A DNA stretch of 34,159 bases. Source: Rhodothermales bacterium. Lineage in GTDB: Bacteria; Bacteroidota; Rhodothermia; Rhodothermales; JABDKH01. Position 1 is the first letter of the stretch. Each line of letters begins with the position of its first letter. Where the stretch lies: the NCBI GenBank assembly GCA_028284545.1, contig JANQRN010000193.1, forward strand, positions 1-34,159, read 5' to 3'. Made by a program: the position numbers and the translations under genes. Shown piece after piece: positions 1,274 through 30,313 of this stretch. The notes under the pieces were generated by a model. It searched no databases. It was not told the DNA's origin and saw only the letters and a program-made list of their open reading frames with translations.

Positions 1274-1301
1274 GGTCTTCCGTGAGGTCTCTTCGGTAGG
1301 G

Positions 1302-8272: not shown

Positions 8273-8340
8273 TGGGTCCACTCGTGTTGTGCGTCAGTCA
8301 ATAGATAGGTGATTTGGCTGACTTGACGAACGGCGCGAGG

Positions 8341-8388
8341 GATTTGTTACAGGATTTGTTGCAGCCCCCAGATTTGTCACAGCCCCCA
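8341..8388. repeat. 18-bp tandem repeat straddling the PRC gene stop codon
   Basis: On the plus strand there are two 18-bp copies, GATTTGTCACAGCCCCCA (8371-8388) and GATTTGTTGCAGCCCCCA (8353-8370), and a truncated 12-bp copy (8341-8352). Read on the minus strand, the same codon position is TGA, CAA and TAA in successive copies. The first copy supplies the actual stop. Confidence 0.9.
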
Positions 8389-8742
8389 GAGATCGGGGTT
8401 TGCCGGTGGATGTGCCGCGGCCATCTCACGGATTAGGGCCGGCGTGGTCACCGATTCATCGAAAGGGTGACAGAGCTGAGGTACGGTCAGGCGTCGGAGT
8501 GCGCGGACCTGTATTTTGCGTCGATCAGGGTCTACTATCGTCACGTAGAAAGCGGGTATCAGGAATGCACCATAGCCGCTACTGTGCGCCATCGACACCC
8601 GTAGAAAACGTGCTTTTCCGTCCTCGTCTCGATAGCAGTCCGCCACCGATCCTATCCGGATTCCGACTGCATCGATCACGTCGAACCCGGTCAGGATCCC
8701 ATCGCTACCGGCCACGCCGTATGTGTCGAACTGTGCTTCCAT
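8377..8742 (-). CDS. PRC-barrel domain protein
   Basis: 121 aa. Residues about 20-95 fit the PRC-barrel pattern: a G-x-x-I-G-x-V core (GIRIGSVADCYRDEDGKARF), a central strand ending in IPAFYV, then VDPDRRKIQVR and a short tail with the HPFDE element found in many single-domain PRC proteins. These small beta-barrels occur in RimM, in photosynthetic reaction centres and in stress-associated proteins; the partner here is unknown. GGAGAAA eight bases before the ATG is one of the clearest ribosome-binding sites in the window. The last residues (DLWGL) lie inside an 18-bp tandem repeat that continues beyond the stop. Confidence 0.75.
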   Translation of the reverse strand: MEAQFDTYGVAGSDGILTGFDVIDAVGIRIGSVADCYRDEDGKARFLRVSMAHSSGYGAFLIPAFYVTIVDPDRRKIQVRALRRLTVPQLCHPFDESVTTPALIREMAAAHPPANPDLWGL

Positions 8743-8898
8743 CGCTCATTTCTCCAATATGTCACCCTGATTACAAACGACGGGCCACAGGCGGCAAACT
8801 GAATGAACCTCGGTTTTTTTGCACCGGAGGGCGTTTTGTCGCGATCTCGGGATCCCGATGTGAGACTCCCGTAGTTCGCGGAGGCTCAGTTCGGGACG
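8743..8898. promoter_or_regulatory. Divergent intergenic region between PRC gene and fkbM
   Basis: This 156-bp gap separates two divergent genes and must carry promoters in both directions. Apart from the PRC ribosome-binding site at its left edge I could not identify specific elements. Confidence 0.35.
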
Positions 8899-9618
8899 AT
8901 GGGTAACTCACGGCTCGAATCTGCAAAAGACGCGGTGCGGCGACTTCGGTGGCGTCTGCGGGCCGCCACGGGGGACGCATCGTTTCACCGCGCCGAGGTA
9001 CGAGCGAGGGTGGAGCGGGTAGGCGGTGTACTGGGGCATGGCGGCTGGATGGTTTGCCCCAATCATCTCGACGCCGAGAGCGTCGTGTACTCTGTCGGCA
9101 TCGGCGACGACATCAGTTTTGACCTGGCAATGATCCGTCGGTTTGGGGTGAAGGTGCAGGCGGTTGATCCGACGCCCGCCTCCCACGCCTGGCTCGCCAC
9201 GCAGCAGCTGCCGCCCGAATTCGTATTGCACCCCGTTGGGCTCGCCGGCTATGACGGTACAGCCTCGTTCGCCGCTGCAGACAACCCGGACTGGGTTTCC
9301 CATTCCATGGTGCGGACCGAGAATCGCGCTGTCGAGAGCTTTCCGGTTGCGCGGCTTTCGACACTAATGGAACGGCTTGGCCATAACCACGTCGATCTGC
9401 TCAAGGTCGATATTGAGGGTGCCGAGTACGACGTCATCGATGACATGCTGTCCTCCGGGGTCGACGTGCGGCAGTTCCTTGTCGAGTTCCACCACAGATT
9501 TGACGAGGTCGGGTGGAAGAAGACGGACCAGGCGATCGCGGATCTGCGGAGTGCTGGCTTCAGGCTCTTCTACGTCAACGGGCGCGGCGAGGAGTACGGA
9601 TTCTTGCGCGACACCTAG
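8899..9618 (+). CDS. FkbM-family methyltransferase (first copy)
   Basis: 239 aa. SAM-dependent O-methyltransferase of the FkbM family, probably acting on a sugar hydroxyl of the surface polysaccharide. The SAM-binding motif I is in a slightly unusual form (YSVGIGDDISFDL, about residues 55-67), followed by the acidic motif VDPTP. The family signature VDLLKVDIEGAEYDVI is clear at about 163-178. It lies opposite to and converges on the glycosyltransferase pair that ends at 9649, at the edge of the polysaccharide locus. The final codons belong to a 17-bp tandem repeat that continues past the stop. Confidence 0.85.
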   Translation: MGNSRLESAKDAVRRLRWRLRAATGDASFHRAEVRARVERVGGVLGHGGWMVCPNHLDAESVVYSVGIGDDISFDLAMIRRFGVKVQAVDPTPASHAWLATQQLPPEFVLHPVGLAGYDGTASFAAADNPDWVSHSMVRTENRAVESFPVARLSTLMERLGHNHVDLLKVDIEGAEYDVIDDMLSSGVDVRQFLVEFHHRFDEVGWKKTDQAIADLRSAGFRLFYVNGRGEEYGFLRDT

Positions 9619-9654
9619 ATTTGCGCGACGCGTACAATTGCGCGACACTTAGAA
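9604..9654. repeat. 17-bp tandem repeat across two convergent stop codons
   Basis: TTGCGCGAC starts at 9604, 9621 and 9638, an exact 17-bp period. Copies 1 and 3 share the tail AC(C/T)TAGA; copy 2 has diverged to GCGTACAA. Copy 1 contains the fkbM stop TAG. Copy 3 contains, on the other strand, the TAA stop of the glycosyltransferase. A fourth partial TTGCC follows. Confidence 0.9.
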
Positions 9655-10761
9655 GTTGCCTAGCAGGTCCGCCCAGCGGGAGAGCACCTGGGATGGAGAA
9701 AACTTCTCATCAAAAGTCGCCCGAGCTGCGCGCGCGGATTTCTGCCACGCGCTCGCGTCGAGCAGTTGGAGAATGCCAGCTGCAATGGCATCGGGATGAG
9801 TTGTCTCGACGAACCTTGCTTCAACGCCATCATGCACCATAGACGGCAGCGACGCGTGCCGCGACAGGACAACGGGTGTGGCAGCCGCGAGTGCTTCAAT
9901 GACACACAAGGGCTGCGCTTCCGTCGGGTAGTAGGTCGGCAGCACGAAGACATCTGCATCGAGATAACATCTTCCGAGCGTCGCGCGGTCAGTAACCTGG
10001 CGCAGGTGCTGAACCCGGTCTGACACGCCGAGTGCATCCGCCACCTCGAAGAATCTTCGCTCATCTTCTTCGTTCTGCCATTTTCCAACGAACGTAGCCT
10101 GGTAGTGCAGACCGGCGTCGTCGAGTACCGGTAGGGCGCGCAGAAACTCCAGATAACCCTTGGACGGGATCATGTTCGACACGAACAACAGTTCTGACCT
10201 TCTACCCGGACCGAGGTTGACCCGTTCGTCGACAGAAGACTGGGAAGGGATCAGGTCGGCTTCGATGGTATTGGGCACGATGCCCACTTTCTCATCGGGT
10301 ATCCACTCGGAACACCTTGACGCAAGGACGCCGTCGAGGAATATGAAACGTTGCACCCGTCGAACCAGTCTCTGTGAAGATGCCCGCAACCACGGGTGTC
10401 TGAACAACGTGTCGAAGCTGCCCCAATGAACTACTGCGACAACCGGGTTCTTCTCTGGAATTGCGGGGAGCACGGTCAGTACGTCGCGAAGATGCCCGGC
10501 GGGTTGCGGCGACACGGTGTGCCAGACAACTGGCGCTTCTGGCGCCTCGCGCAGCGCATTAGAGATCTGCCTCCTTGCCCTGCCGTAGTGAGCCACTCGG
10601 GCCAGCGCAGACTGGCTGTCGTTGGATGATGCCAGGCCCGTACTTGTGTCGATAATCTGCACGTCAAACGACTCAGACAGGAGTTGCGCATTGAGGCGCG
10701 TGAGTACGTTCTGCCCGATGTAGGGCGGGGGCAGACTGCCAAGAACGACAACCTTCTTCAT
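9649..10761 (-). CDS. Glycosyltransferase family 4 (GT-B fold)
   Basis: 370 aa. The N-terminus VVVLGSLPPPYIGQNVLTRL is a GT4-type first strand and glycine loop. The C-terminal half holds the donor-binding signature: VLPTYYPTEAQPLCVIEALA, with the E-x7-E-like arrangement, then ATPVVLS. It should transfer a nucleotide-activated sugar to a lipid-linked polysaccharide intermediate on the cytoplasmic side of the membrane; donor and acceptor are not readable. It is translationally coupled to the preceding glycosyltransferase by an ATGA overlap (10758-10761). The 3' end lies in a tandem repeat shared with the convergent fkbM. Confidence 0.9.
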   Translation of the reverse strand: MKKVVVLGSLPPPYIGQNVLTRLNAQLLSESFDVQIIDTSTGLASSNDSQSALARVAHYGRARRQISNALREAPEAPVVWHTVSPQPAGHLRDVLTVLPAIPEKNPVVAVVHWGSFDTLFRHPWLRASSQRLVRRVQRFIFLDGVLASRCSEWIPDEKVGIVPNTIEADLIPSQSSVDERVNLGPGRRSELLFVSNMIPSKGYLEFLRALPVLDDAGLHYQATFVGKWQNEEDERRFFEVADALGVSDRVQHLRQVTDRATLGRCYLDADVFVLPTYYPTEAQPLCVIEALAAATPVVLSRHASLPSMVHDGVEARFVETTHPDAIAAGILQLLDASAWQKSARAARATFDEKFSPSQVLSRWADLLGNF

Positions 10762-12011
10762 GTCGGTACTCCTGCTGAGGCCCGGCGAAACGCATCCGAC
10801 AAAACAGCTTCGAAGCGGTCAGCGATTCCGCCAACCTCAAACGTTCTTGCAGCGTATTCGCGGCCATTCTGCCCCATCTCACTGCGCATTTTCGGGCTCG
10901 CCAACAACTGCCTCGCACCTTCGACAAAGCCGGCAACGTCGTCGGGTTCGAACACCATGCCGGCCCGGTTTGCGGAGACCAGTCGCGACGCCAGATTATT
11001 GCCCGGCACGGCCAATAGAATTGGTCGGGCGGCGCACATGTACGACAGAACCTTCGACGGTACGGAATAGGCGCCGGCGTCGCGCTCGAGAATGCCGACC
11101 AGGACGTCCGCTGACGCAAGTACGTGCGGTAGATCCTCGAACGCCTGGAAGCCAAGGATGTCGAGGGCGTCGAGTCCGATGTTTTCCTTCTGTTTCGCGA
11201 GCCAGTCGGCACCAGAGCCGTTCGAGACAACCACGAGTCTGGCATCCGACTGTTGAAGTGAAACCGCGAGTTGCTTGAGCAATTCGGGATTGTGCTTCAT
11301 GGCCAGCGTCCCGGAGTAGATCAAGCACGGCTTGTTGGCGAGATCGTGTCTGATGGACCATGGATTCGTCTTCGGGCCAACGGGCATATCTTCGACCGGC
11401 GCCCAGTTCTCGATCACGGTGATCCGGTTGTCGTCCACGCGGGCCGCTCGAAGCCCGGCCCGGAAATCCTCAGCGATGGTTACGACGGCGTCGCTTTGTC
11501 GCAGCAGCTTTTGCTCAAGCCCGCGGTAGTGGGAGCCGACAAGACTACCCAGCAGGGGGATCTTTCGAGAGAGCAGACGCCGTGACGCCTCACCGATCAG
11601 GTCTTGGACCCAGAACGCTTTGGCAACGCCGCCGTCGACGCACACGTTCCATAACCTGCGTTGAGCGTCCAACGGGGTATTCCCGCTGAGTACTACGTCG
11701 GGTTTGTGCCGGGCGACGGCGGCCGCGAGCAGACGTCCGTATTCATTCTCTTGCAGCCACCGCGCAAAGAAGTTCGTTTTGTTTAGCGCGCGGCCAAGTT
11801 CGATCGGGAGAATTGTCAGCGTGGCGGGGTCGGCAGCCCTGCGCGTGAGTTCGCCGCGAGGTGTTGTGCGCAACGACGCACAATAGGCATGCACTACCTC
11901 GTACCCGCGGTGGGCAAGTTCCCTGCTCAGCTGGATTTGAAAAGGGTGCCCCGCGTAGTCGTGGACGAAGATCCGTCCGGGTTCCCGGTGCGAGGGCGCG
12001 GCGATTGACAA
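10758..12011 (-). CDS. Glycosyltransferase family 4, WbuB-like
   Basis: 417 aa. The N-terminal RIFVHDYAGHPFQIQLSREL resembles WbuB/FnlC-type sugar transferases of O-antigen clusters. The C-terminal Rossmann domain contains LIYSGTLAMKHNPELL and the donor-site segment SVPSKVLSYMCAARPILLAVPG. The start is a TTG at 12011: no ATG or GTG lies close by and upstream codons give no better choice. It overlaps the next glycosyltransferase by four bases and is divergent from the methyltransferase at 12085. Specificity is unknown. Confidence 0.88.
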   Translation of the reverse strand: MSIAAPSHREPGRIFVHDYAGHPFQIQLSRELAHRGYEVVHAYCASLRTTPRGELTRRAADPATLTILPIELGRALNKTNFFARWLQENEYGRLLAAAVARHKPDVVLSGNTPLDAQRRLWNVCVDGGVAKAFWVQDLIGEASRRLLSRKIPLLGSLVGSHYRGLEQKLLRQSDAVVTIAEDFRAGLRAARVDDNRITVIENWAPVEDMPVGPKTNPWSIRHDLANKPCLIYSGTLAMKHNPELLKQLAVSLQQSDARLVVVSNGSGADWLAKQKENIGLDALDILGFQAFEDLPHVLASADVLVGILERDAGAYSVPSKVLSYMCAARPILLAVPGNNLASRLVSANRAGMVFEPDDVAGFVEGARQLLASPKMRSEMGQNGREYAARTFEVGGIADRFEAVLSDAFRRASAGVPT

Positions 12012-12084
12012 GCCTGTCGTTGTTGGTGAACGTGTGGTGCAAAGATATAGAAGAAGTATCTTGCTGGCCCCTTCAGCAGCGCAT

Positions 12085-12936
12085 ATGACCGTGGCAGAAA
12101 AGATGTCGATTGCTAAACGACTGGCGTCGATCCCGGTCCTCGGGCGGCTCGCGATGCTTGGCTATCGTAGCATCATTGGCATCACGACGCTTGGAAGTCA
12201 GACTGCCGCCTTCGCCCGTTGGTGGGCCACGTCGCGTGAGTTCACGAACTACACTTACGAACTGACGCCGGTGAACATGGCGCAGCTGGCTGCATTCTGT
12301 GCCCAGGTGGCGGGAATCAGCATTGAGCGGTCGCAGGAACTGATCGACGAGCTGCTATCGGATCGAGAGTTGGTCGAGCATATCCGGTCAGCCACGAATC
12401 AGTCTGCAATGCGCCGCTTTTCGGATTCTGAGGTCCGCTATGGCCGACGTATCGGATGGTACGTCTTGACGCGGGCCCGTCGTCCACGACTGGTCATCGA
12501 GACCGGCATCGACAAGGGTCTCGGCGCCTGTGTCCTGACTGCCGCGCTTTTGCGCAATAAGGAAGATGGGTTCCCCGGGCGCTACGTCGGGACCGATATC
12601 CGTGAGGAGGCCGGCTATCTGCTTTCAGGCAAGTATGCCACCGTTGGTGAGATCCTCTACGGGGACTCCATCGCGTCCCTGCAGACTCTGGATGAATCCG
12701 TTGGACTGTTCATCAATGACAGCGACCACTCGTCAGATTACGAGCGACGCGAGTACGAGGTGATTTCTCCATTGCTGGAGGCCGATGCGCTGGTTGTTGG
12801 CGACAACGCGCACGAGACAAACGAATTATTCGACTTCGCGTCAGCCACCGGGCGCGACTTTCTTTTCTTTCGCGAAGAGCCACAGCGACACTGGTATACC
12901 GGAGCCGGCATTGGAGTTGCATGGTCAGCAGCGTAA
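12085..12936 (+). CDS. Class I SAM-dependent methyltransferase (Methyltransf_24-like)
   Basis: 283 aa from the ATG at 12085; a GTG at 12034 or an ATG at 12103 are alternatives, none with a clear ribosome-binding site. The SAM fold shows as PRLVIETGIDKGLGACVLTA (motif I), then RYVGTDIREEAGYLL, EILYGDSIASL and GLFINDSDHSSDYERREYE. The last, with the N-D-S-D-H-S acidic strand, matches Methyltransf_24 proteins common in polysaccharide loci. It stands alone on the plus strand between two minus-strand glycosyltransferase operons. Modification of a surface sugar is the likely role, but that is inferred from context only. Confidence 0.75.
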   Translation: MTVAEKMSIAKRLASIPVLGRLAMLGYRSIIGITTLGSQTAAFARWWATSREFTNYTYELTPVNMAQLAAFCAQVAGISIERSQELIDELLSDRELVEHIRSATNQSAMRRFSDSEVRYGRRIGWYVLTRARRPRLVIETGIDKGLGACVLTAALLRNKEDGFPGRYVGTDIREEAGYLLSGKYATVGEILYGDSIASLQTLDESVGLFINDSDHSSDYERREYEVISPLLEADALVVGDNAHETNELFDFASATGRDFLFFREEPQRHWYTGAGIGVAWSAA

Positions 12937-12941
12937 TCAAG

Positions 12942-12960
12942 TCACGCCCTTTCGGCGTGA
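12942..12960. terminator. Hairpin terminator overlapping the 3' end of the convergent glycosyltransferase
   Basis: TCACGCC and GGCGTGA form a perfect 7-bp stem with a 5-nt loop. It begins five bases after the methyltransferase stop and includes the last codons and stop of the opposing gene. It has only a weak T run. Confidence 0.6.
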
Positions 12961-14183
12961 TGAAACGAGTCAATTCGTCGGGCGAACGTGTTGATGGCCT
13001 CCAGTACGAGACGTGCATCGAGGGCTTTACGAACGGGTTGAGTTAGCGCAACTTCCACTGCGTGTTCCATGCTCGTGGCGAATCGGTCCAGTCCCCACGC
13101 CGCAATTATCTCGGCGGATTTGTCGCTCATCGACCTACGCGTTGCGTTCGACAGTCCCGCCATCTTGTGGAGCCGATCTGCGAGATGCTCAACGTCGCCG
13201 GATTCGAAGGTGAACCCGTTTTCATCTGGCGAGACAAGGTCCCGGGCGCAACCGGCTGCGTCAGACACAATCAGCGGCGCCCCGGCCGCCATCGCCTCGT
13301 TCACCACCAGACCCCACTGCTCGCGCTTGGACGGAAGCACGAGGCACCCCGCCGCTCCGTAGTGTTCAGGTAGCGTGTCGTACGGTTGGGCACCGAGGAA
13401 GGTGACCTCCGGTACGCGCTGCTCGCGGCACATCTCCCGGAATGTGTCGGCGTCGGGGCCGTCCCCGAGAATTCTCAGACCCCATGGCGCGGGGCTTGGG
13501 GGCGCCTTCTCCCGATATACCTGGTAGGCTTGAATCAGCAGGGGGACGTTCTTCTTGTCGACTAGCCGCCCGCAGTAGAGGAAATGTGCTGGTAGTTGAT
13601 CTCCGCCCTCGGACTGTGCCTGCTGTCGCAGCTGACGCCCTCTTTCAAAGTGTGAGTTATCGACCACGTCCAGACCGAGGAAGATCCGCTTTCTTGAGAA
13701 ACCCAGGCCCGCGAGGTAGTCGGCGTGTGGTGTGCCGGCGACGACTGCGCTGTCATAGAGCGACATGAGTCGCGACTTCACGCGTTCGCGCCAGGCAACC
13801 CTGAGTGACGCGTCAAGGTGTGAGTCGGTCGTGACAACAACCGGCCGCCGCCTTTTTACCGCCCAACGCAGCGCGGCGCGCGCATCCGGCAGGCTGTAGC
13901 TGTTCGTGACCACAACGTCGGGTTGCAGCTCGTCCAGCGCGTTGGTCACTCCTGAATAGATCTGTTGGGGCCTCAGGTCTTCAAACACGGCTTCAGCGAA
14001 GACCGTCCTGACGTCGACGCCGACGTTTGGCGCACGTTCCCAGAGGTACGACCGCTCGCTCCCGGCGGTCTCAAGTGCTGCGACACGTAGTGCTGGTGCG
14101 TGCGCGGCCAGCGCCTCCAGCCGGGCCGTGTGGTACGGACCGAGGTTGGGCCATTGCAGGCAGACGCGGATGGAATCACCCAC
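12942..14183 (-). CDS. Glycosyltransferase family 4
   Basis: 413 aa from the GTG at 14183, which follows GGAGGG at good spacing and overlaps the previous gene by 8 bp. The open frame continues upstream but that extension is not GT-like. N-terminal IRVCLQWPNLGPYHTARLEA; C-terminal HFLYCGRLVDKKNVPLLIQA and, at the donor site, LVLPSKREQWGLVVNEAMA followed by GAPLIVSDAAGCARDLV. This is the canonical GT4 pattern. It is the last gene of the wza-to-glycosyltransferase operon and probably adds a sugar to the repeat unit. The hairpin at 12942-12960 covers its stop. Confidence 0.9.
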   Translation of the reverse strand: MGDSIRVCLQWPNLGPYHTARLEALAAHAPALRVAALETAGSERSYLWERAPNVGVDVRTVFAEAVFEDLRPQQIYSGVTNALDELQPDVVVTNSYSLPDARAALRWAVKRRRPVVVTTDSHLDASLRVAWRERVKSRLMSLYDSAVVAGTPHADYLAGLGFSRKRIFLGLDVVDNSHFERGRQLRQQAQSEGGDQLPAHFLYCGRLVDKKNVPLLIQAYQVYREKAPPSPAPWGLRILGDGPDADTFREMCREQRVPEVTFLGAQPYDTLPEHYGAAGCLVLPSKREQWGLVVNEAMAAGAPLIVSDAAGCARDLVSPDENGFTFESGDVEHLADRLHKMAGLSNATRRSMSDKSAEIIAAWGLDRFATSMEHAVEVALTQPVRKALDARLVLEAINTFARRIDSFHHAERA

Positions 14184-15402
14184 GGCGGCCCTCCACGAGA
14201 TGGCGGAGCAAGGCCTCGCTGAGGCACTGGGAATAGGCGTCGCTGCTATTTGCAGCGGCAAAGGAGGCAGCACGGTCACGGTCAATCGCTGGAGCAGAAT
14301 CATCTGCAGCGATCTGCTCCCAGACCCGGCTCAGTTCCATGGGATCTCTGGTATCGACGATTTTGCCCAGTTGGTATCGCCTTATGTTTTCACCGAGTGT
14401 TCCAAACTCGGGCCCGACGACGGGAATTCCGGCGGCTGCGGCGTGAACGAGCACGTTGCTCGAACCAATGTGGTCGATGTACGGCAGCGCGACCACGTCA
14501 GCCTCGCTAACGCGGCCGAGAAACTCCTGCTCGTCCATCTTTTTGTCGATGACTGTCACCGGCCGCGGCGTTTGTGCGTTCACGCGGTTCAATTCTGCCA
14601 TGATCGCGCCCTTTTCCGAGGGCTCGATGGGGCCGACGATGCTAAAGCGCAACTTGTCGAAAATTCCGGGATCGACATCCACGAGGCTACGGAGGAATGA
14701 GATTACTCCCTTGCGTTTGCTGATGGCTCCGGGAAGCACAACGGTGCGCGGTTGAGTGTCACGGTTCCTTCGAGGTGACCGAATCGAGTCGACTGGATCG
14801 GGAAGCCAGTGCACCGCCGTTCGTGGGGAGGCCAGTTTCGAGATCTCGCTAACGGCAAACGCATCAAGGGAAAACACGTCGGTGAGATTTCGGTTCTTCA
14901 GTGCCGTAGCCAGTATGCGTCGCTTGCGCTGTGCGGAAGTGCTTCGGGCGTATTCGCGGGAACGATCGTCGGGCAGTGAACCGTAATGCAGCGTCGGTCT
15001 GAAGAGAATACCGGCGATCGCCATGCTTCGATTTGGTCTCAGGATCGAAGCGAGGGATAGCTGCAGGTGGTCCATGTACATAACCAATGCCGCATCAATC
15101 CCGTACTGTCTTGCGAGACGCGCAACGCGCAATCCCGACGTTATGTCGATCGCGGCGAGCGACACGGATCCGCGTGGGCCGTCCTGATCCTGCAGGTGAT
15201 GGATGGAGAGCGCGCCGTCGGAGTCTTCTGCCAGCATTTCGAAGGCAGGGTTCACCGCTGTCATCGGGCGCGGCAACGCTGCGACAACGTCTATTGGCCA
15301 GTTGATCGCTGCCAGGTGCTCCAACAAGTACCAGACATACTTACCATGGTGGCCCCCCGCGTACGGATCAAAAACGAGTAGTTTTTTCCTGCCGTTACTC
15401 AC
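14176..15402 (-). CDS. Glycosyltransferase, GT-B fold (GT4-like)
   Basis: 408 aa from a GTG at 15402-15400 that overlaps the flippase stop (GTGA). The N-terminus LLVFDPYAGGHHGKYVWYL has the glycine/histidine loop of GT-B enzymes. The C-terminal half reads TVVLPGAISKRKGVISFLRS and VVALPYIDHIGSSNVLVHAA, then GIPVVGPEFGTLGENIRRY, which fits a donor-binding Rossmann domain. Within-family motifs are weaker than in the other three glycosyltransferases, so substrate and even subfamily are open. It sits between wzx and the last glycosyltransferase in a tightly packed operon. Confidence 0.82.
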   Translation of the reverse strand: MSNGRKKLLVFDPYAGGHHGKYVWYLLEHLAAINWPIDVVAALPRPMTAVNPAFEMLAEDSDGALSIHHLQDQDGPRGSVSLAAIDITSGLRVARLARQYGIDAALVMYMDHLQLSLASILRPNRSMAIAGILFRPTLHYGSLPDDRSREYARSTSAQRKRRILATALKNRNLTDVFSLDAFAVSEISKLASPRTAVHWLPDPVDSIRSPRRNRDTQPRTVVLPGAISKRKGVISFLRSLVDVDPGIFDKLRFSIVGPIEPSEKGAIMAELNRVNAQTPRPVTVIDKKMDEQEFLGRVSEADVVALPYIDHIGSSNVLVHAAAAGIPVVGPEFGTLGENIRRYQLGKIVDTRDPMELSRVWEQIAADDSAPAIDRDRAASFAAANSSDAYSQCLSEALLRHLVEGRRG

Positions 15403-15428
15403 GGTGCTTCAGACTCACGGTGCTTCAG
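15397..15428. repeat. Perfect 16-bp tandem duplication at the wzx/glycosyltransferase junction
   Basis: ACTCACGGTGCTTCAG occurs twice back to back with no mismatch. The duplication contains the flippase stop codon and the GTG start of the next gene. Because 16 is not a multiple of three, the second copy is read in a different frame and changes the flippase end from HLKHRE to HLKHRESEAP. Confidence 0.97.
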
Positions 15429-16913
15429 ATGCCTGGTCAACTCAATCAGTTCTTTTCGAAGCGGATGGCGTAGGAGCGGGATGAGGAGGATTGCGCCGAT
15501 CAGCGCGAGTTGCCCGATCAACAATACACCGGCTGACATTGAAAGGGGATTGCGGTCGCCGAGCAGCCACGCGCCAAGTCCGGCGCCGACGCTTGCTATC
15601 ACCAGTCGGGCCGTCGGCGAATCCAGAATTGTCCTCCAGCTCACGCCGCAGCGACGGCTATAGTTGCGGGCGACCAGCACACTGCCGACGACCAAACTGC
15701 CACTTATTGCAACCACGACTCCGATTGGGCCGAATTGCCGGCCGGCGACGAAACCGACCACCAGAACACCAACTGCGAGGATCCCGTGGCTGACGAGCGG
15801 CCACTTCAGGCGACCCTCGCCAAGGAAGCCGAAGTAGCCGGGCGTTGCAAGTAGATTTACAAACCACGCGACGACCAGCAGCGTTGCACTGAGAACAAAG
15901 AACGGCTCGTGGCTCCCGATCCATACTCTCGAGACCGAGGGCAGCAAACCGATGATTGTAGGTACCGTGACAATCGTCAGAGCGGTGACAATCCGCTGGG
16001 TCTTGACGTAGACGGCAACCACTCCATCTTGATCGGAGACACTGAGTTTTGCGATTGCCGGGAGTGCGGACTGGACTGCACCGGCGGCTACGGAGCGAAG
16101 TTGTACGGATAGTTTCCAGCCGAATTCGTACAGGGCCAACGCGCCCAATCCGCCAAAAGCCGAAACAAATGCCTTGGCGACGGGCTCAGTAATCACGTTA
16201 GCGACGGAGATGGCCTGCATTCCCGCGCTGTAGCGAAAGATGCTCTTAAAGGTCTCCCGCTTCCAATGGAAGGGTAAGATAGGGAGCTCCCGAATGAACC
16301 GACGCAGTATGCTCCAAGAGACAATAAGCGCGATCGAAGCGTGGATCAGGTGCGCCATGGCCAGCCCTAGCAGTCCGTTCGCCTTGGCTAGCACGATACT
16401 CAGCACAAGGTAGGTGACGATAGCTCCCGACAAGATGTGGCTTCGCAGATCGACGCGCTGGCAGCCCTCAAGACCGGCCAAAAAAACTGCCGTTACGGAA
16501 GAGACCCAGATCGAAACCAACACGACCGGCAGAATCGAACGTGCGCTCTGAAGTGCGGTTGGGTCTGCAATCACTGCCGGAAGGACGGCGCTTATTGCGG
16601 GGAGTGCAATTGCGAACACGACACCGAGACTGACGGCGACGCTAAGCGCTGCTGTTTCGACGATACTCGCTGCTCCGGATCCGTCGTTTTCGGCCAGGCG
16701 AAGCGGAATGAACCGGATGCAGGCGTTCGCGAGCCCGAGATTCGCGATGGCCGTTGTTGATGAGGCTGCCAGGACGAGCGCCCAGACTCCGAACAGGTCG
16801 CGACCCAGCAGGTCGAGCAGGAAACGGTACAGGAAGAAGTAGACTACTCCAGTGACGATGACCTGCGATGCTGCCGCCACCGCGTTGACCAGCATTTGCT
16901 GTCTGCTCGCCAC
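15399..16913 (-). CDS. wzx: Polysaccharide flippase (Wzx/MATE-like, MVF superfamily)
   Basis: 504 aa from the GTG at 16913, which overlaps the wzy stop by one base (TAGTG). That start gives ASRQQMLVNAVAAASQVIV, matching the N-terminus of this family; the longer open frame upstream is only the other frame of wzy. Twelve or more hydrophobic segments alternate with short charged loops over the whole length, and the amphipathic first helix with FLLDLLGRDLFGVWALVLA is typical of polysaccharide biosynthesis proteins. It moves the lipid-linked repeat unit across the inner membrane. The neighbouring wzy, wzz and wza support Wzx/Wzy-dependent assembly. Confidence 0.87.
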   Translation of the reverse strand: MASRQQMLVNAVAAASQVIVTGVVYFFLYRFLLDLLGRDLFGVWALVLAASSTTAIANLGLANACIRFIPLRLAENDGSGAASIVETAALSVAVSLGVVFAIALPAISAVLPAVIADPTALQSARSILPVVLVSIWVSSVTAVFLAGLEGCQRVDLRSHILSGAIVTYLVLSIVLAKANGLLGLAMAHLIHASIALIVSWSILRRFIRELPILPFHWKRETFKSIFRYSAGMQAISVANVITEPVAKAFVSAFGGLGALALYEFGWKLSVQLRSVAAGAVQSALPAIAKLSVSDQDGVVAVYVKTQRIVTALTIVTVPTIIGLLPSVSRVWIGSHEPFFVLSATLLVVAWFVNLLATPGYFGFLGEGRLKWPLVSHGILAVGVLVVGFVAGRQFGPIGVVVAISGSLVVGSVLVARNYSRRCGVSWRTILDSPTARLVIASVGAGLGAWLLGDRNPLSMSAGVLLIGQLALIGAILLIPLLRHPLRKELIELTRHLKHRESEAP

Positions 16914-18334: not shown

Positions 18335-18356
18335 GGTACGTGCTACCCGCAGCCGC

Positions 18357-19547: not shown

Positions 19548-19557
19548 GTCCGCTCAC

Positions 19558-21309: not shown

Positions 21310-21474
21310 AGGAGCCTGCCAGAAAACATGATTTGTCGACGGCGTCCGCACATCGGATCCTGGGGACGCAAATCGTAACGCTTGGCAAATAGGCTGGGTA
21401 GGCAGGGGGAATGGTGTGGCCGGCTGACCGAGGACGACGTGAAGTGCCAAAAATAACGGTGGCGGCCTCGTCAG
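21310..21474 (-). promoter_or_regulatory. Probable promoter region of the polysaccharide operon
   Basis: This 165-bp gap separates ispE from wza and is the largest gap upstream of the six-gene operon, so its promoter is expected here. An AT-rich patch at about 21360-21395 could hold it. I could not fix -33/-7 elements, and read-through from ispE is possible. Confidence 0.3.
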
Positions 21475-22347
21475 TCAATTCCGGCGCGGCGAGGTATGCC
21501 GCCCTGACTCACCGATCCACGTCATCGATGCAAATGGGCCAAGCTTCTCTGCAGCCGCCGTCGCCGCCTCGTGCGTAGGGAAAACACCAAAAACGGCTGC
21601 TCCTGAGCCGGATAGCGACGCATACTCGGCGCCGGCTCCGTAGAGCGTTCCCTTGAGCCTTGCCAACTGGGGGAATGCCGAGAATATTGGGGCTTCGAAG
21701 TCGTTCACCAGATGATCTCGCCAGGCCCGAATGTCGTTGCCGCGCACGAGGCTTTCGAGGTCGGGCCGGTCTTCTTGACTTGGCGCGACCAGGCGATAGG
21801 CGTCCGCACTCGATATCGATAGCTCGGGCACCGCGACCAGGAAGACGAACGGACACCGATAGTCGGCACCGTTTGATTGCCGAAGCGCCGCAAGTTCGTC
21901 GCCCTTGCCGACTCCGACACACGGTCTGTTGTGCAGAAAGAAGGGAACGTCGGCACCAAGCGAGCGGGCGACTTTCTCGAGTCGTTGTTCATCCTCTTTG
22001 CCGCTGGCCTTCGACAGGAGCCGAAGGACGCCGGCGGCGTTCGCCGAACCACCGCCGAGCCCGGAACCAGCCGGTAGTCGTTTGTCAAGGTGGATGTGTA
22101 CAGGCGGAGACTCGCCGAACTCGCGCTCAAAGGAAATTCTCGCGGCAACGCACAGGTTCGATTCGTCGACCGGAAGCGAGGGGTCGCTGCACGTGAACGA
22201 ATGCGTTTGGGCGTCACGGACCGTGATTACGTCGGACCACCCGATCGGCAGGAACACGGTTTCAATATCGTGGTACCCGTCCGCGCGTTTCCGCAAGACG
22301 TGCAGGCCGAGATTGAGCTTTGCTCCTGTTGCAATTTCCGATCTCAT
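21475..22347 (-). CDS. ispE: 4-diphosphocytidyl-2-C-methyl-D-erythritol kinase
   Basis: 290 aa. Phosphorylates CDP-methylerythritol in the MEP pathway, using ATP, to make the substrate for IspF. GHMP-kinase features are complete: catalytic Lys10 in GAKLNLGLHVL, the ATP loop LPAGSGLGGGSANAAG (91-106), catalytic Asp133 in GADVPFFLHN, and the C-terminal GSGAAVFGVF loop. ispG of the same pathway lies 8 kb away on the other strand. ispE is divergent from the second fkbM gene and upstream of the polysaccharide operon. Confidence 0.97.
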   Translation of the reverse strand: MRSEIATGAKLNLGLHVLRKRADGYHDIETVFLPIGWSDVITVRDAQTHSFTCSDPSLPVDESNLCVAARISFEREFGESPPVHIHLDKRLPAGSGLGGGSANAAGVLRLLSKASGKEDEQRLEKVARSLGADVPFFLHNRPCVGVGKGDELAALRQSNGADYRCPFVFLVAVPELSISSADAYRLVAPSQEDRPDLESLVRGNDIRAWRDHLVNDFEAPIFSAFPQLARLKGTLYGAGAEYASLSGSGAAVFGVFPTHEAATAAAEKLGPFASMTWIGESGRHTSPRRN

Positions 22348-22462
22348 GACGGTCCTTAGATCGTTGATGGGTCGCTTCGACGTTTCGTCGCACGCACCGT
22401 TCCGCTCCTATTGTCTTTCTCGCTGGGACGCCAGCGACCTCCCCTAAACGAATCTGGTACCT

Positions 22463-23188
22463 GTGAGTCTACGAGAAACCGCAAGATGGGCGCTTCGTCG
22501 TGCCGGGTACGAGCTCAGGAAGTTTGATCGGTTCCATGCTCCCCTGGCCAGGCGGCTCACGCTGATGAAGACACACGGGATTGATTGTGTCCTGGATGTC
22601 GGCGCCAATTCTGGGCAGTATGCGATGGAGCTGCGACGTGGTGGATACGCGGGGCGGATCATATCGTTTGAGCCTCTGGCCGAACCGTTCGCTGCACTGG
22701 AAAACCAGTCATCCGATGACCCGAACTGGGAGGCAATGTGCTTCGCGCTAGGGAACCAGGAAGGTGAGGCCACTATCAATGTGTCGGGGGTGAACCAGTG
22801 TAGTTCGCTGCTGGATCTCAACGAGAACCTGCTTGGTGTCGATCCCGACGTCAAGTTTGTCGGCACCGAGACTATAGAGGTGCGGCGTCTGGATTCTCTG
22901 TACAACGAAATCGTGCCGAAGGGGGCTTCGGTGCTGCTCAAGCTAGACGTGCAGGGGTTCGAAAGCTCTGTACTTGATGGGAGCGTAGCGTCGATTGCAA
23001 ACGTCAACGCGATCCAGATCGAGATGTCGCTCGTGACGCTTTATGAAGGGGATACTCTCTTTCCCGACATGGACCAGCGACTACGCGACAGCGGGTTTAC
23101 GCTGATGTCGGTAGAGCCCACGTTTGTTGACTACAGCGGACAGATGCTGCAGCTGGATGGGTACTACGGGCGCGCGCCGCAGCGCTAG
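22463..23188 (+). CDS. FkbM-family methyltransferase (second copy)
   Basis: 241 aa from a GTG at 22463. Motif I is the standard CVLDVGANSGQYAMEL (about 41-56), followed by IISFEPLAEPFAAL. The family hallmark SVLLKLDVQGFESSVL lies at about 154-169 and QIEMSLVTLYEG follows. It is closer to typical FkbM enzymes than the copy at 8899, and the two share only family motifs, so they are not recent duplicates. Probably methylates a polysaccharide sugar. Its stop codon directly abuts the stop of the convergent gene at 23189 with no spacer and no hairpin. Confidence 0.9.
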   Translation: MSLRETARWALRRAGYELRKFDRFHAPLARRLTLMKTHGIDCVLDVGANSGQYAMELRRGGYAGRIISFEPLAEPFAALENQSSDDPNWEAMCFALGNQEGEATINVSGVNQCSSLLDLNENLLGVDPDVKFVGTETIEVRRLDSLYNEIVPKGASVLLKLDVQGFESSVLDGSVASIANVNAIQIEMSLVTLYEGDTLFPDMDQRLRDSGFTLMSVEPTFVDYSGQMLQLDGYYGRAPQR

Positions 23189-23692
23189 TCACTCGTCGTC
23201 AGTCCGCCGGTACGCTTCGACGGGTACGTCGGCGTGATCGAGCAAGATGTCCAACGTCCAAGCTGAGTCGATGTCTTCCATCGAGTAGTCGTCGATCACT
23301 TCGTGCGTGAGGCTGCGCCAGTCCACCGTCCAGTCTTTCAGGACGTCAAAACCAAACTGGTGCTCATCGGTCTCGTAGATCACCTGTCCGTTTTCCGAAT
23401 CGTACACGCAGTCGGCGCCGTCATCCTGCTCGGTTAGTCGGTACGCGCGTGCGAGAAGGGGCGCCCGGAATCCAAAGTCGAACTTCTTGATCTTGAGCCC
23501 TTCCTGGACGAGATACTTGGCGAGGACGATGCACCCCTGGCTGCTGTTTATCGCGCTGCGAGCTGCGTCGTAGACAATTTCTTCTGCGCCGATGGTGCCG
23601 AGCGCTTCCTCGACGCGTGACCAGATTGCGACCGTCTGCGTGTCGAAGCCGTCCTTCTGGGGGACGGTGACGGTCAGGTCCTCGACTTTCAT
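23189..23692 (-). CDS. Uncharacterised 167-aa protein
   Basis: I do not recognise a family. The protein is acidic (many Asp and Glu, especially near the C-terminus), has no signal peptide or membrane segment, and looks like a mixed alpha/beta soluble domain. Aromatic-rich stretches include KKFDFGFRAPLLARAY and FDVLKDWTVDWRSL. Two cysteines occur, in SQGCIVLA and ADCVYD. The start ATG is the first in frame. Codon use looks like the neighbours and the frame is open without interruption, so it is probably real. Context (between fkbM and pbp1A) gives no clear hint. Confidence 0.65.
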   Translation of the reverse strand: MKVEDLTVTVPQKDGFDTQTVAIWSRVEEALGTIGAEEIVYDAARSAINSSQGCIVLAKYLVQEGLKIKKFDFGFRAPLLARAYRLTEQDDGADCVYDSENGQVIYETDEHQFGFDVLKDWTVDWRSLTHEVIDDYSMEDIDSAWTLDILLDHADVPVEAYRRTDDE

Positions 23693-23740
23693 GCCTTGCT
23701 TGGGGTGTTGGCTAACATCATAGTGCTAGGCGAGGCGCGG

Positions 23741-26077
23741 TTACCAACCGACGCGGCCCTGCTCCCTCCGGTTATCTTTGTCCTCAAGCTCGTCGACCAT
23801 GCCTTCCTGTGACGGGTCAAGCGGACCAATAGGTAGTCCGTAGTCCGTCGGCGTCGGAAACTCCTCCTTGGTCAATCCACTCTCGGGATCGTTTAGTACG
23901 GATTTTAGGTAATCTCCGACAATAAGTAATGCGTTGTGGGCGCCCTGCCCCCACCAATCTGAGCGGAAGGCAACCCTTCGATCGTTAAATCCGACCCATG
24001 CTCCGGTAACGAGCTGCGGGTACATGCCGATGAACCATCCGTCGCCATTGTTCTGCGTTGTACCGGTTTTTCCAGCGAGGTCCCACTCACCGAGTCCAAA
24101 TTGCGAGTTGAGTCGGCGCGCAGTTCCCTCTTTGACGACGGCGCGCAACATGTCGATCATCGTGACGGCGGTTTCCTCTGAGAGGGCCTCTGTCGCGCGC
24201 TGCGGTGGCGCTTCGTAGATCACGATGCCGTGCTTGTCTTCGATTCGCGTAACCACGACCGGCTCGTTGTACAGTCCGTTGTCGGCAATCGTGGCGTAGG
24301 CGGAAGTCATTTCCAGGAGGCTGACGTCACTTACGCCAAGCGCCAGCGCGGGTACTTCGATGAGGGGACTCTCGATTCCCATCAGGCGCGCGTACCGCGC
24401 TACGGCGGTTGGGCCAATCTGCAGGACCAGTCGGCCGGTGATGGTGTTCTTCGAGTGCGCAAGCCCGTCGCGCAGCGTCAGTTCTTCGCCAGAACCCGGG
24501 TCACCCGAGTTCTGCGGATTCCACTCGTTGCCCAGCGCATCAACGTACAGGAAAGTGGTGTCGCGCAGCGTGTGGTATGGTGAATACCCGTTGTCGATTG
24601 CCGCCGTGTAGACAAACGGCTTGAAGGTTGAGCCGGGCTGGCGCTTCGCAAGTGCGACGTGATCAAACCAGTCAAGGGAGAGGTCGCGACCACCAACCCA
24701 TGTCACAACCTGCCCGTTGCGCGGGTCGATCGAAACCATGCCCGCCTCGAGTCGCGTCTTGTTCGTCCGAAGCGAATCGATGAACGCCTCGTTCGCCTTC
24801 AGCTGCTCCAATGCGTCACGCGCCGAGACGTCGTTCTGGCGCAGGCGCTTGAACCGATGCGTCTCCCGAATGAATGCGTCGACGGTCTCCTTCTGCGACT
24901 TCCAGAAGTAGTCGAATGGCGTGTAGTCCTGCTTCTTCAGGTAGGCGTCGGTGGTCAAACCGATTTCGTATCCGCCCGACCGGCTCCATTCGTAGTCGAC
25001 CACGGCCTGGAGCCCCTCCATCTGCCTTTGAGTCGACTCGATGGCGGCCTGCTGCAGGCGTGAGTCAAGCGTAGTATGGACAACCAGACCGTCAGCGTAG
25101 GGGTCGCATCCGTTCTCCTTGCACCAGTCCCCGACAAACTGCCGGACGTACTCCGCAAAGTGGGGCGCTATGCCCTCGGTGATTTCGGAGGACTGATATC
25201 GCGTCACGATCGCCGAGTCGCGAACGGTGTAGTAGTAGTCCTCCGTCAGGAGACCGTGCTTGATCATCTGGCGCAGCACGACGTTGCGCCGCACGCGCGA
25301 CTTCTCCGGGTTCAGGATCGGATTGTACCGGGTGATCGCCTTCTGCATCCCGACGAGAACAGCGGCTTCCAACGTGTCGAGTTTTGACGGGTGCTTACCG
25401 AAGAACGTCCGTGCCGCGGCGTCGAGACCAAAGGCGTTGTGCCCAAACTCGACCGTGTTGAGATACATCTGGATGATCTCGGGCTTCGAATAGCGACGCT
25501 CAAGCTGGACGGCGGTTGCCATCTCTTTAAGTTTGCGCTTTACGGAGACCTCTTTGCCAATCTGGTCGTCGTACAGGTTGCGCGCCAGCTGTTGCGTTAT
25601 CGTCGAACCGCCCTGGGGGTCGCCACGGAGAACGTGATACGGGATTGCCATCGTGCGGAAGAGGTCGATGCCCCAGTGACGATAGAAGCGATGGTCCTCG
25701 GTTGCGACGAGCGCCCGCACAACGGCGGGAGAGATGTCCTCGTACTCCACCCACGAACGGTTCTGCCGCGCGTAGCGCTGCAGTTCAACACCATCGGACG
25801 TGTACGCGACCGTTGCGAGCTGCAGGCGCGGATTCTCGATCTGGGAGATATCCGGGAGCTGGCTCGAGATGCCGAGGAAGTAGATCAGAACTGCGAAGGT
25901 GCCAAGGAGCAGTACGACGCCTATGAGTCCGAGGACGGCGACGGCCTGGCGCTTCTTGGGTGAGTCGCCCGACAGTTTCTTGATCCAGCGTGCGCGACTG
26001 CCGCCCGCCTTCTTGCGGGACTGCGGATCGGTGAAGTAGCGATCCAGTTCTTCGTCGGAGTAAGACCAGTTGGCCAT
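23741..26077 (-). CDS. pbp1A: Class A penicillin-binding protein (PBP1A-like)
   Basis: 778 aa bifunctional peptidoglycan synthase. A short cytoplasmic tail (to 44) and one membrane anchor (about 46-70) precede the GT51 glycosyltransferase domain. That domain has catalytic Glu127 in ATEDHRFYRHWGID and the QGGSTITQQLARNL motif (155-168). The transpeptidase domain has the S-x-x-K motif at Ser483-Lys486 (GSTFKPF), S-K-N at 542-544 and K-T-G at 670-672. All catalytic residues are present. A helical insertion of about 70 residues (365-440) lies between the domains. It follows lpxH with four bases between stop and start, so the two are cotranscribed. Confidence 0.96.
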   Translation of the reverse strand: MANWSYSDEELDRYFTDPQSRKKAGGSRARWIKKLSGDSPKKRQAVAVLGLIGVVLLLGTFAVLIYFLGISSQLPDISQIENPRLQLATVAYTSDGVELQRYARQNRSWVEYEDISPAVVRALVATEDHRFYRHWGIDLFRTMAIPYHVLRGDPQGGSTITQQLARNLYDDQIGKEVSVKRKLKEMATAVQLERRYSKPEIIQMYLNTVEFGHNAFGLDAAARTFFGKHPSKLDTLEAAVLVGMQKAITRYNPILNPEKSRVRRNVVLRQMIKHGLLTEDYYYTVRDSAIVTRYQSSEITEGIAPHFAEYVRQFVGDWCKENGCDPYADGLVVHTTLDSRLQQAAIESTQRQMEGLQAVVDYEWSRSGGYEIGLTTDAYLKKQDYTPFDYFWKSQKETVDAFIRETHRFKRLRQNDVSARDALEQLKANEAFIDSLRTNKTRLEAGMVSIDPRNGQVVTWVGGRDLSLDWFDHVALAKRQPGSTFKPFVYTAAIDNGYSPYHTLRDTTFLYVDALGNEWNPQNSGDPGSGEELTLRDGLAHSKNTITGRLVLQIGPTAVARYARLMGIESPLIEVPALALGVSDVSLLEMTSAYATIADNGLYNEPVVVTRIEDKHGIVIYEAPPQRATEALSEETAVTMIDMLRAVVKEGTARRLNSQFGLGEWDLAGKTGTTQNNGDGWFIGMYPQLVTGAWVGFNDRRVAFRSDWWGQGAHNALLIVGDYLKSVLNDPESGLTKEEFPTPTDYGLPIGPLDPSQEGMVDELEDKDNRREQGRVGW

Positions 26078-26081
26078 CGGG

Positions 26082-26921
26082 TCAGCCGTGGATTTCAGCC
26101 CTGGATTTCAGGCCGTGGGTTGCGGGAGGCATTGCGGCGGTCGTAGCTGATTCTTCGGCGCGATCGGGCGCGGTCGGGCCTGCAGATGACCATTCCAGCA
26201 ACTGCGGCCCACTGCCCGGGGGGCGGGCGTCGTCTGTAATCAGAGCAAACGTCCGCTGGTAGTGCCAGGATCCCGGATTCAGGTACAGCCCGCCCGCCAT
26301 GGCGCGTTTCTCTGGAAAATGGCTGTGTCCCATGACTACGATATCGACGTCCTTGCGTGTGAGTATACCCTCAGCGTGTTTTCGCAGGCCGTCCACCGTC
26401 TGCATGGAGCGGCGTTTGGCGGAGAACTTGTTATTCACCCAGCGGGCCAGCGAGACGCCCACGTCGCCGGGGAGGACGGACTTGTAGATGCTCACCGGAA
26501 TGGGATGCCGCAGGACCCGCTTCAGTTTGCCATACAGGCCGCCAAGCGCGGGGGCGCCGTCTCCGTGAAAGAAGTGATAGCGCATCCCGCCGAGCAGCCG
26601 CTCATCGGTGTCCATAAACATCGCTGCCCCGAATTCCCGAGCGAAGTAGTCTCGGTGCCAGGGGTCATGGTTGCCGGCGAAGTACGATATCGCCACCCCC
26701 GCGTCGGCAAGGTCTGCCAGCTTGCCCTGAAACCGAGAATAGCCCTTTGGGATGAGGTGGCGGTACTCGATGTAGTATTCGAAGACATCGCCGAGCAGGA
26801 CGACCTCAGACAGCCCCCGATCCGCGAAGAACTCGAGGCACGCCACGAGCTCCTTCTCCTTCGAGCGCTCGGCGCCGGCGTCGGCCTTGCCGAAGTGGAT
26901 GTCTGCGAGGATGAGGATCAC
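26082..26921 (-). CDS. lpxH: UDP-2,3-diacylglucosamine hydrolase-like metallophosphoesterase
   Basis: 279 aa from the GTG at 26921. Calcineurin-type metal ligands are complete: Asp7 and His9 (LADIHFG), Asp45 (GDVFEY), Asn84 and His85 (GNHD), His119 (FFHGDG) and His199/His201 (GHSH). The HGDG segment and the following GKLKRVLRHP resemble Bacteroidota LpxH-like enzymes, which cleave UDP-diacylglucosamine to lipid X in lipid A synthesis. A different phosphoesterase substrate is possible. The start is uncertain: the frame stays open through C-rich heptamer repeats to 27194, but that part is low complexity and the GTG lies exactly where homology begins, without a ribosome-binding site. The last residues lie in a 13-bp tandem repeat. 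Confidence 0.8.
   Translation of the reverse strand: MILILADIHFGKADAGAERSKEKELVACLEFFADRGLSEVVLLGDVFEYYIEYRHLIPKGYSRFQGKLADLADAGVAISYFAGNHDPWHRDYFAREFGAAMFMDTDERLLGGMRYHFFHGDGAPALGGLYGKLKRVLRHPIPVSIYKSVLPGDVGVSLARWVNNKFSAKRRSMQTVDGLRKHAEGILTRKDVDIVVMGHSHFPEKRAMAGGLYLNPGSWHYQRTFALITDDARPPGSGPQLLEWSSAGPTAPDRAEESATTAAMPPATHGLKSRAEIHG
26083..26108. repeat. 13-bp tandem duplication across the lpxH stop codon
   Basis: Two copies, CAGCCGTGGATTT and CAGCCCTGGATTT, differ at one base, and a third partial copy (CAGGCCGTGG) follows. The lpxH stop TGA (26082-26084) uses the first bases of this array. With one unit removed, the lpxH frame would run without a stop into the pbp1A ATG at 26077. Confidence 0.92.
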
Positions 26922-26928
26922 GGGAGGA

Positions 26929-27008
26929 AGGTGGGAGGTGGAGGGTTGAAGGTTGAAGGTGGAGGGTTGAGGGTTGAGGGTTGAGGGTAGAAGGTAGGGG
27001 GTGAAGGT
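26929..27008 (+). repeat. GGTTGAG heptamer tract with G-quadruplex potential
   Basis: About 80 bp built of 7-bp units of GGTTGAG, GGTTGAA and GGTGGAG type. Between 26964 and 26987 four GGG runs are separated by exactly TTGA, a canonical G-quadruplex pattern on the plus strand. It lies immediately upstream of the lpxH start, in the divergent region between lpxH and the first rhomboid gene. Confidence 0.9.
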
Positions 27009-27090
27009 ACGGGGGCAGGAGGTCGCGGTTAAGGACGGCGAATGGGCTGTGGCTGTTTCTACGGGTTTTCCGCCGATCGTTCCGCTTCTG

Positions 27091-27114
27091 GCGCCGGGCG
27101 GAGCGGCCCGGCGC
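27091..27114. other. Perfect GC-rich hairpin in the lpxH/rhomboid intergenic region
   Basis: GCGCCGGGC and GCCCGGCGC form a 9-bp stem with the loop GGAGCG. There is no T run. It lies in the 353-bp gap between divergent genes, between heptamer tracts of opposite orientation (26929-27008 and 27136-27164). It is not at a gene end, so terminator function is unlikely. I see no clear promoter in the rest of the gap (27165-27274). Confidence 0.55.
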
Positions 27115-27135
27115 GTTGTGGTCACGTTCGCACCG

Positions 27136-27164
27136 TTGACCCTCCACCTTCCACCTTCAACCCT
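27136..27164 (-). repeat. Short heptamer tract, inverted orientation
   Basis: The plus strand reads as CCCTCCA, CCTTCCA and CCTTCAA units, which are the reverse complement of the GGTTGAG-type tract at 26929-27008. It is the only heptamer tract in the window in this orientation. Confidence 0.75.
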
Positions 27165-27274
27165 TTCGGTATCGGCGGCCGCGCTGCGGCGCAAAATAGC
27201 AGATCATAATGACGGTCGCGACGTAACATCCGGCCCTCTCGAACGAACAACCGCTTTTCCGCCCAATCCGCCGG

Positions 27275-27982
27275 ATGAACCAGTACCAGCAGCCGACGCT
27301 GCAATTCTCCTTTTTCCCGCCGGTGATCAAGAATCTCTTGATCGTCAACCTGCTGGTGTACCTCGCGCAGATCGTCGCGATGACGACGAACGCGGGCGGA
27401 CTCGCAGTGGTACTCAACGCGATGGCGCTCTACCCGCCGGGCTCGGGTGAGATCGGGTCTTCGATATTTGGTGGACGCAACGTCCCGATTCCGGGATTCT
27501 GGCCGTGGCAGATGGTGACGTACTCGGTTCTGCACAGCGTAGGGTCCTTCTCGCACATCCTTTTCAACATGTTCGCGCTGTGGATGTTTGGGATGCAGCT
27601 CGAGAATACGTGGGGTTCCAAGCGCTTCGCATTGTACTATTTCGTTTGCGTCATTGGCGCAGCAATAGTGCAGATGATCGTCATGTACGGCTCCAGCGTG
27701 CCCACCCTCGGGGCTTCCGGAGGAGTCTTCGGCGTACTCCTGGCGTTCGGAATGATGTTCCCCAACCAGCAAATCTTCCTGTTTCCGATCCCGTTTCCGG
27801 TGAAGGCAAAGTATTTCGTGGCGGGCTACGGGCTAATCGAACTGTACAGTGGGGTCGCGGGTACAATGGACGGCGTTGCCCACTTTGCCCACCTGGGTGG
27901 CATGTTTTTTGGCTTCGGACTCCTGCTGTATTGGATGGGACGACTTCCGTTCAAACCAAAGAGCCAGGGCAGCACCTTCTGA
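27275..27982 (+). CDS. Rhomboid-family intramembrane serine protease (first)
   Basis: 235 aa with about six hydrophobic segments. The catalytic serine is Ser148 in GASGGVFGVL and the histidine partner is His206 in HFAHLGGMFFGFG, so the Ser/His dyad is intact. The HILFNMFALWMFGMQLE segment matches the second helix with its His and Asn, which form the oxyanion site, and the G-x-x-L/E turn. It cleaves transmembrane segments of membrane proteins; the substrate is unknown. It heads an apparent operon: rhomboid, rhomboid, EEP-family enzyme. Confidence 0.92.
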   Translation: MNQYQQPTLQFSFFPPVIKNLLIVNLLVYLAQIVAMTTNAGGLAVVLNAMALYPPGSGEIGSSIFGGRNVPIPGFWPWQMVTYSVLHSVGSFSHILFNMFALWMFGMQLENTWGSKRFALYYFVCVIGAAIVQMIVMYGSSVPTLGASGGVFGVLLAFGMMFPNQQIFLFPIPFPVKAKYFVAGYGLIELYSGVAGTMDGVAHFAHLGGMFFGFGLLLYWMGRLPFKPKSQGSTF

Positions 27983-27997
27983 TTCCGCCTGGATGCG

Positions 27998-28036
27998 GTG
28001 CCTACACGATCTGCCTCGACGATCTGCCTCGACGAT
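27998..28036. repeat. 13-bp tandem repeat abutting the start of the second rhomboid gene
   Basis: CTGCCTCGACGAT occurs twice exactly (28011-28023, 28024-28036) and is preceded by the degenerate copy GTGCCTACACGAT (27998-28010). The last two bases are the first two of the ATG at 28035. The array occupies almost the whole spacer between the two rhomboid genes, where a ribosome-binding site would be expected. Confidence 0.92.
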
Positions 28037-30091: not shown

Positions 30092-30117
30092 GAGGTTGAG
30101 GGTTGAGGGTTGAGGGT
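30092..30117 (+). repeat. GGTTGAG heptamer tract after the EEP gene
   Basis: Three and a half heptamers (GGTTGAG) begin five bases after the stop codon and run directly into the 47-bp repeat array. Three GGG runs and one GG with TTGA loops could form a two-layer quadruplex in the mRNA 3' end. Confidence 0.88.
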
Positions 30118-30285: not shown

Positions 30286-30313
30286 GTTGAACCGGGGGGC
30301 GGTTTGGTGGTAC

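Follow-up and report, generated by a model that had tools for sequence, protein, structure and literature searches.

Short tandem duplications at gene junctions of a Rhodothermales genome are probably slippage products spread over noncoding DNA

The stretch of DNA analyzed here (34,159 bp, hereafter referred to as the window) is contig 49 of the 3.85-Mb draft genome of a Rhodothermales bacterium (326 contigs, 81% complete; G000). Repeats were examined by direct reading of the sequence and with Tandem Repeats Finder (TRF), and a self-trained codon-pair model served to call genes. Tested on annotated E. coli DNA (50 kb), the gene caller recovered 44 of 47 stops and placed 36 starts within 30 bp, so called stop positions are reliable and start positions less so. 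Genome-wide tests were performed on 1.06 Mb of the 3.85 Mb (28%), and 0.4 Mb was sampled from each of G006 and G015, two order-mates whose genomes are single contigs. The only congener among the 40 nearest genomes is G001, with 59% protein identity of the metallophosphoesterase. The named neighbours of IspG are metagenome genomes of Bacteroidetes and Rhodothermia; in the nearest named relative by this protein (L180, 92% identity) the downstream neighbour differs from that in the window.

Pfam analysis of the genes at the junctions considered here revealed a PRC-barrel protein, an FkbM methyltransferase, group-1 glycosyltransferases, a polysaccharide synthase, a penicillin-binding protein, a metallophosphoesterase and two rhomboids. 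An earlier note on this DNA listed five short tandem duplications located at stop or start codons. All five are present, a few bases from where they had been placed, and every one of them overlaps at least one stop or start codon. The array at 8340-8390 (minus strand) contains 2.1 copies of an 18-bp unit and a third partial copy at a 12-bp offset, and triplicates the 3′ end of the PRC-barrel gene (8377-8742, minus strand). The array at 9604-9659 contains 3.2 copies of a 17-bp unit (79% matches) and lies between two convergent genes. The TAG stop of the FkbM-methyltransferase gene (8899-9618, plus strand) is in copy 1, and the TAA stop of the glycosyltransferase gene (9649-10761, minus strand) is in copy 3. 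At 15397-15429 (minus strand), 2.1 copies of a perfect 16-bp unit cover a GTGA stop/start overlap. A 13-bp unit is present in 2.8 copies at 26082-26118 (minus strand), at the 3′ end of the metallophosphoesterase gene, whose TGA stop (26082-26084) is 4 bp away from the start of the penicillin-binding protein gene at 26077. The fifth array, at 27999-28036 (plus strand), consists of 2.4 copies of a 13-bp unit, perfect over 28006-28036, and then a diverged third copy, inside which lies the ATG of the second rhomboid gene (28035).

The five tandem duplications are real and above chance: 20 near-perfect tandem duplications (period 10-40) were detected in 0.81 Mb of the genome and none in order-2 Markov sequence. 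Their units are unrelated, as the earlier note had it. A BLAST search with each unit against the 1.06 Mb of genome produced no match longer than 18 bp, with E values of at least 0.09. The arrays are head-to-tail copies of local sequence with no motif common to the sites, and since the five units do not recur across loci in this search, they do not constitute a dispersed mobile or regulatory repeat of the REP, STRR or TAACTGA type. A longer-offset echo at 1217/1302 turned out to be an older tandem duplication in which 85 bp of the subtilase 3′ end were copied (1217-1386, minus strand). Its copies have diverged to roughly 70% and give a local alignment score of 49, compared to 32 for the best of 500 shuffles; the motif WNxPxxTTxRxxWxGDF* stands at the end of both, in different frames. 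Similar arrays that are absent from the original list and overlap no called gene end are found in the window at 9168-9202, 26157-26179, 30112-30249, 30354-30379 and 31562-31647. The one at 30354-30379 (plus strand) is a near-perfect 12-bp duplication, and the closest called gene end is about 101 bp away from it.

The proposed preference of the arrays for junctions over other noncoding DNA fails genome-wide: they are no more frequent within 30 bp of gene ends than in other noncoding sequence, the outcome that the earlier note had itself named as refuting the proposal. The positional test used TRF arrays with a period of 9-60 and a score of at least 40. Thirteen of the 39 arrays that are at least partly noncoding in the 1.06 Mb are centred at most 30 bp from a gene end, with 13.8 expected from the 35.4% of noncoding bases that lie within this distance. 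With random placement of spans of the same lengths, 17.8-20.6 arrays are expected within 30 bp and 22 were observed (p = 0.10-0.37), while 8 arrays overlap a gene end compared to 9.7-13.8 expected. Among near-perfect duplications, 10 of 14 are located within 30 bp of a gene end, compared to an expectation of 7.0-8.6 (p = 0.09-0.30). The absence of an excess was unchanged when the window was left out. The span-based point estimates are slightly above expectation (22 compared to 17.8, p = 0.10), which counts against the explanation that we favor below. Intergenic gaps in this genome are short (median 36 bp, 46% of them at most 30 bp), and therefore nearly any noncoding repeat falls at a junction.

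The window itself is rich in arrays: its share of the noncoding bases is 3.6%, and 7 of the 39 noncoding or edge arrays fall in it (p = 5e-4, uncorrected for the choice of this finding and for the roughly 113 stretches of window size). The density of noncoding arrays in the genome is about 8 times that in G006 and twice that in G015. The richness of the window and the density differences between genomes weigh against the explanation favored below; they are differences of rate or tolerance and not of junction placement. A contaminant contig was considered as the cause of the local enrichment and rejected, since no contig is more typical than the window in its tetranucleotide use (r = 0.991).

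Coding and noncoding DNA differ strongly in array content. The density of arrays with a TRF score of at least 50 is 0.302 per kb in noncoding or edge DNA versus 0.019 per kb in coding DNA, an excess of about 16-fold. Periods divisible by three account for 15 of 19 coding arrays versus 10 of 24 noncoding ones, and the multiple-of-three bias in coding DNA is also seen in the two order-mates (18 of 22 and 35 of 37). Near-perfect duplications in coding sequence cluster at the termini: four of nine lie no more than 30 bp from an end, compared to 0.5 expected (p = 0.0014); with the window excluded, two of six are at termini versus 0.4 expected (p = 0.045). This pattern fits selection against protein-breaking changes, with changes of the protein tail being tolerated. 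According to work by Lin and Kussell as cited in PMC4692102, simple repeats are enriched towards gene termini and suppressed in gene interiors, and work by Mrazek and colleagues as cited in PMC4679880 finds repeat units in multiples of three likeliest in coding regions. The statement that no named phenomenon matches the arrays was thus too strong, enrichment of repeats at gene termini having been published. A junction-specific duplication process under a name of its own did not turn up in our literature search.

The history of single junctions was read by comparison with G001. In the PRC-barrel array the gene-proximal copy contains the TGA stop, the middle copy has CAA and no stop, and the distal partial copy, CCTGTAACAA, resembles the context of the TAA stop in G001, CCTGTAACAATT. 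The stops of the FkbM-methyltransferase and glycosyltransferase genes are separated by 30 bp built of 17-bp copies, compared to 8 bp and no array in G001. Copy 1 of this array provides the FkbM-methyltransferase stop (CCTAG), the last copy contains TTAG, the complement of which provides the TAA stop of the glycosyltransferase gene, and the middle copy has decayed. The ancestor was probably a single copy with overlapping convergent stops (TTAG) that were separated by duplication, both genes keeping a stop. At this junction one can follow how two genes with overlapping ends can be moved apart by a duplication while both remain intact.

With one copy of the 16-bp unit at 15397, the upstream gene would, by codon reading, end in ...LKHRE followed by TAA. 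The second copy shifts the upstream frame and supplies a TGA, and the GTG start of the downstream gene is retained in the gene-proximal copy. The orthologues of 14176-15402 in relatives are too diverged for this junction to be read. The array at 26082 touches just the unconserved C-terminal tail of the metallophosphoesterase, and no array was found in the 3′ region of the G001 metallophosphoesterase gene. The two rhomboid genes are 52 bp apart here, with the 13-bp array in between, and about 24 bp apart, with no repeat, in G001. Arrays are absent from G001 at all four readable orthologous junctions. Among nine sampled edge arrays, with three contig-end calls set aside, the stop or start is inside the gene-proximal copy in six; of the other three, two are duplications that shift the frame and one has an ambiguous start.

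We consider it very likely that the arrays are independent, lineage-specific tandem microduplications scattered through noncoding DNA, which were produced by slippage or misalignment and survive since the proteins stay intact or are altered only in the tail. Replication slippage or misalignment would make tandem duplications anywhere, and duplications that break proteins would then be lost. When a duplication spans a gene boundary, the upstream gene would keep its end in a copy of its own, and another copy would hold the start of the downstream gene or, if convergent, its end. Gene-end duplications would survive because both proteins stay intact or differ only in the last residues, and the arrays look junction-tied because most noncoding DNA in so compact a genome consists of short gaps. 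One possibility offered in the earlier note was slippage that is tolerated only away from conserved coding sequence; it gains support from the 16-fold noncoding excess, the multiple-of-three periods in genes, the absence of the arrays in G001 and the working gene ends. The presence and distribution of the arrays and their absence in G001 are observed directly; slippage as the molecular cause and the neutrality of the duplications are what we infer.

The arrays resemble slippage tandem repeats or VNTR-type microduplications (PMC4692102, PMC4679880) in having short, unrelated units, mostly in 2-3 copies, in being lineage-specific and depleted in genes except for periods that are multiples of three, and in being tolerated at gene ends. 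Unlike classical simple sequence repeats of 1-11 bp, their units are 10-34 bp long, and several arrays straddle stop or start codons. The TAACTGA repeat of Beggiatoaceae (PMC4679880) is one conserved dispersed motif, located mostly upstream of starts, whereas the five units here all differ. The junction duplications are real repeats with, most probably, an ordinary cause and no junction-specific process. Since a compact genome yields the junction pattern when slips survive only outside genes, the pattern need not be pursued as a new mechanism. The parts worth keeping are the separation of stop codons inferred at 9604 and a family of heptad repeats described below.

Several other explanations were weighed. 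The lineage may have unusually active, intergenic-biased duplication, with gene-end duplications acting as a ratchet that pulls overlapping genes apart and makes new spacers. The array density, about 8 and 2 times that in the order-mates, and a burst of GGTTGAG heptads that is absent from G001 speak for this reading, which we nevertheless regard as unlikely. Functional elements under selection, such as terminators, repeated protein-binding sites, or translation-coupling or phase-variation devices, would be suited by positions at stops and starts, and a change of copy number at 15397 or 26082 would alter the C-terminal frame. However, none of six folds went beyond those of shuffled sequences (z from -0.68 to 0.39), no Rfam match was found in the window, the unit sequences are unrelated, and the arrays are not conserved at the four G001 junctions. 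Copy changes affect protein tails or spacers only, so an on/off switch is not expected, and a functional role is quite improbable.

The earlier note had also considered an active process at junctions, which could be a nuclease, an integration or a repair event coupled to the end of translation or of transcription and duplicating the DNA there. That all five listed arrays overlap a stop or start codon, and that the window is locally enriched, would agree with such a process. It is already largely refuted by the positional tests, which revealed no genome-wide excess either within 30 bp of gene ends or in overlap with them; in addition, the units have no common motif, and stops, starts and convergent ends are all affected. 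We find it extremely unlikely. Artefacts of metagenome assembly, conceivable in a draft genome, are scarcely credible, since copies in the 8353, 9604 and 26082 arrays carry distinguishing substitutions, all arrays are short enough to be spanned by a short read, the copies agree with intact reading frames and stop codons, and the composition of the window matches the rest of the assembly.

Slippage-type microduplication thus remains our preferred explanation of the five arrays. A separate, dispersed family of arrays is built of the heptads GGTTGAG/GGTTGAA and is unrelated to the five junction duplications. We detected 82 overlapping exact three-unit matches in this genome and none with a reversed control pattern; G001 has no three-unit match, and a few are present in three of the other relatives searched. 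The window contains heptad arrays at 26927-27023, 27137-27165, 30094-30117 and 31473-31535, and the genome sample 24 more. Where arrays lie between called genes, the GGTTGAG strand starts at most 30 bp from the 5′-side gene boundary or overlaps it in 17 of 22 cases, and in none of the 22 does its end come as close as 30 bp to the next gene. The 5′ neighbour gene is the nearer one in 20 of 22 (p = 1e-4). We conclude that the GGTTGAG heptads, unlike the five duplications, are tied to gene boundaries with fixed strand polarity. In several gaps, for example 26922-27165, heptad arrays face inward from both sides.

A matching polarity is published for the G-rich heptameric GGGNATC repeats of Xanthomonas and Nostoc (PMC4692102), which, like the GGTTGAG arrays, are intergenic, mostly 0-50 bp from a gene boundary, and have equal strand polarity. 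The heptad found here is a different one, with tracts of two or three G only; a quadruplex would be hypothetical. There is also a likeness to the TAACTGA repeats (PMC4679880), which are gene-adjacent heptad direct repeats, some overlapping stops, with stops in all frames. GGTTGAG repeats contain TGA in all three frames, and the polarity may partly follow from this sequence property, a point also raised for TAACTGA repeats (PMC4679880). Judging by the heptad family, the published polarity rule for gene-end repeats may extend to an unrelated phylum.

Several further observations were made around the heptad arrays. The ispG gene reads into the heptad array at 31473-31485, and the array supplies its stop codon (GGT TGA). 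A perfect hairpin, GCGCCGGGC-GGAGCG-GCCCGGCGC, occupies 27091-27114, flanked by heptad arrays that face inward; this region is upstream of the metallophosphoesterase and rhomboid genes, which are divergent. At L012:2680-3510, heptad arrays flank two tRNA-like sequences, recognized by eye, in one intergenic region. Two heptad-bearing intergenic regions (L094:6134-6164 and L104:3151-3181) have a 31-bp sequence, ACCCTCAGCGAGGCCGAAGGCCGACGCGCAC, in common (96.8%), which is possibly a second dispersed repeat. The G015 sample (L133, L144) contains heptads of its own, AACGTGC/AACGTTC/AACGGGC, which suggests different heptads in different lineages. Finally, two neighbouring intergenic gaps of the window (30112-30290 and 31554-31650) contain related arrays built on TTGTCCGGATCTAACAACC, with periods of 47 bp and 18 bp. 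Each of them is located directly downstream of a heptad array, and 14-bp exact matches are also found in L106 and L010.
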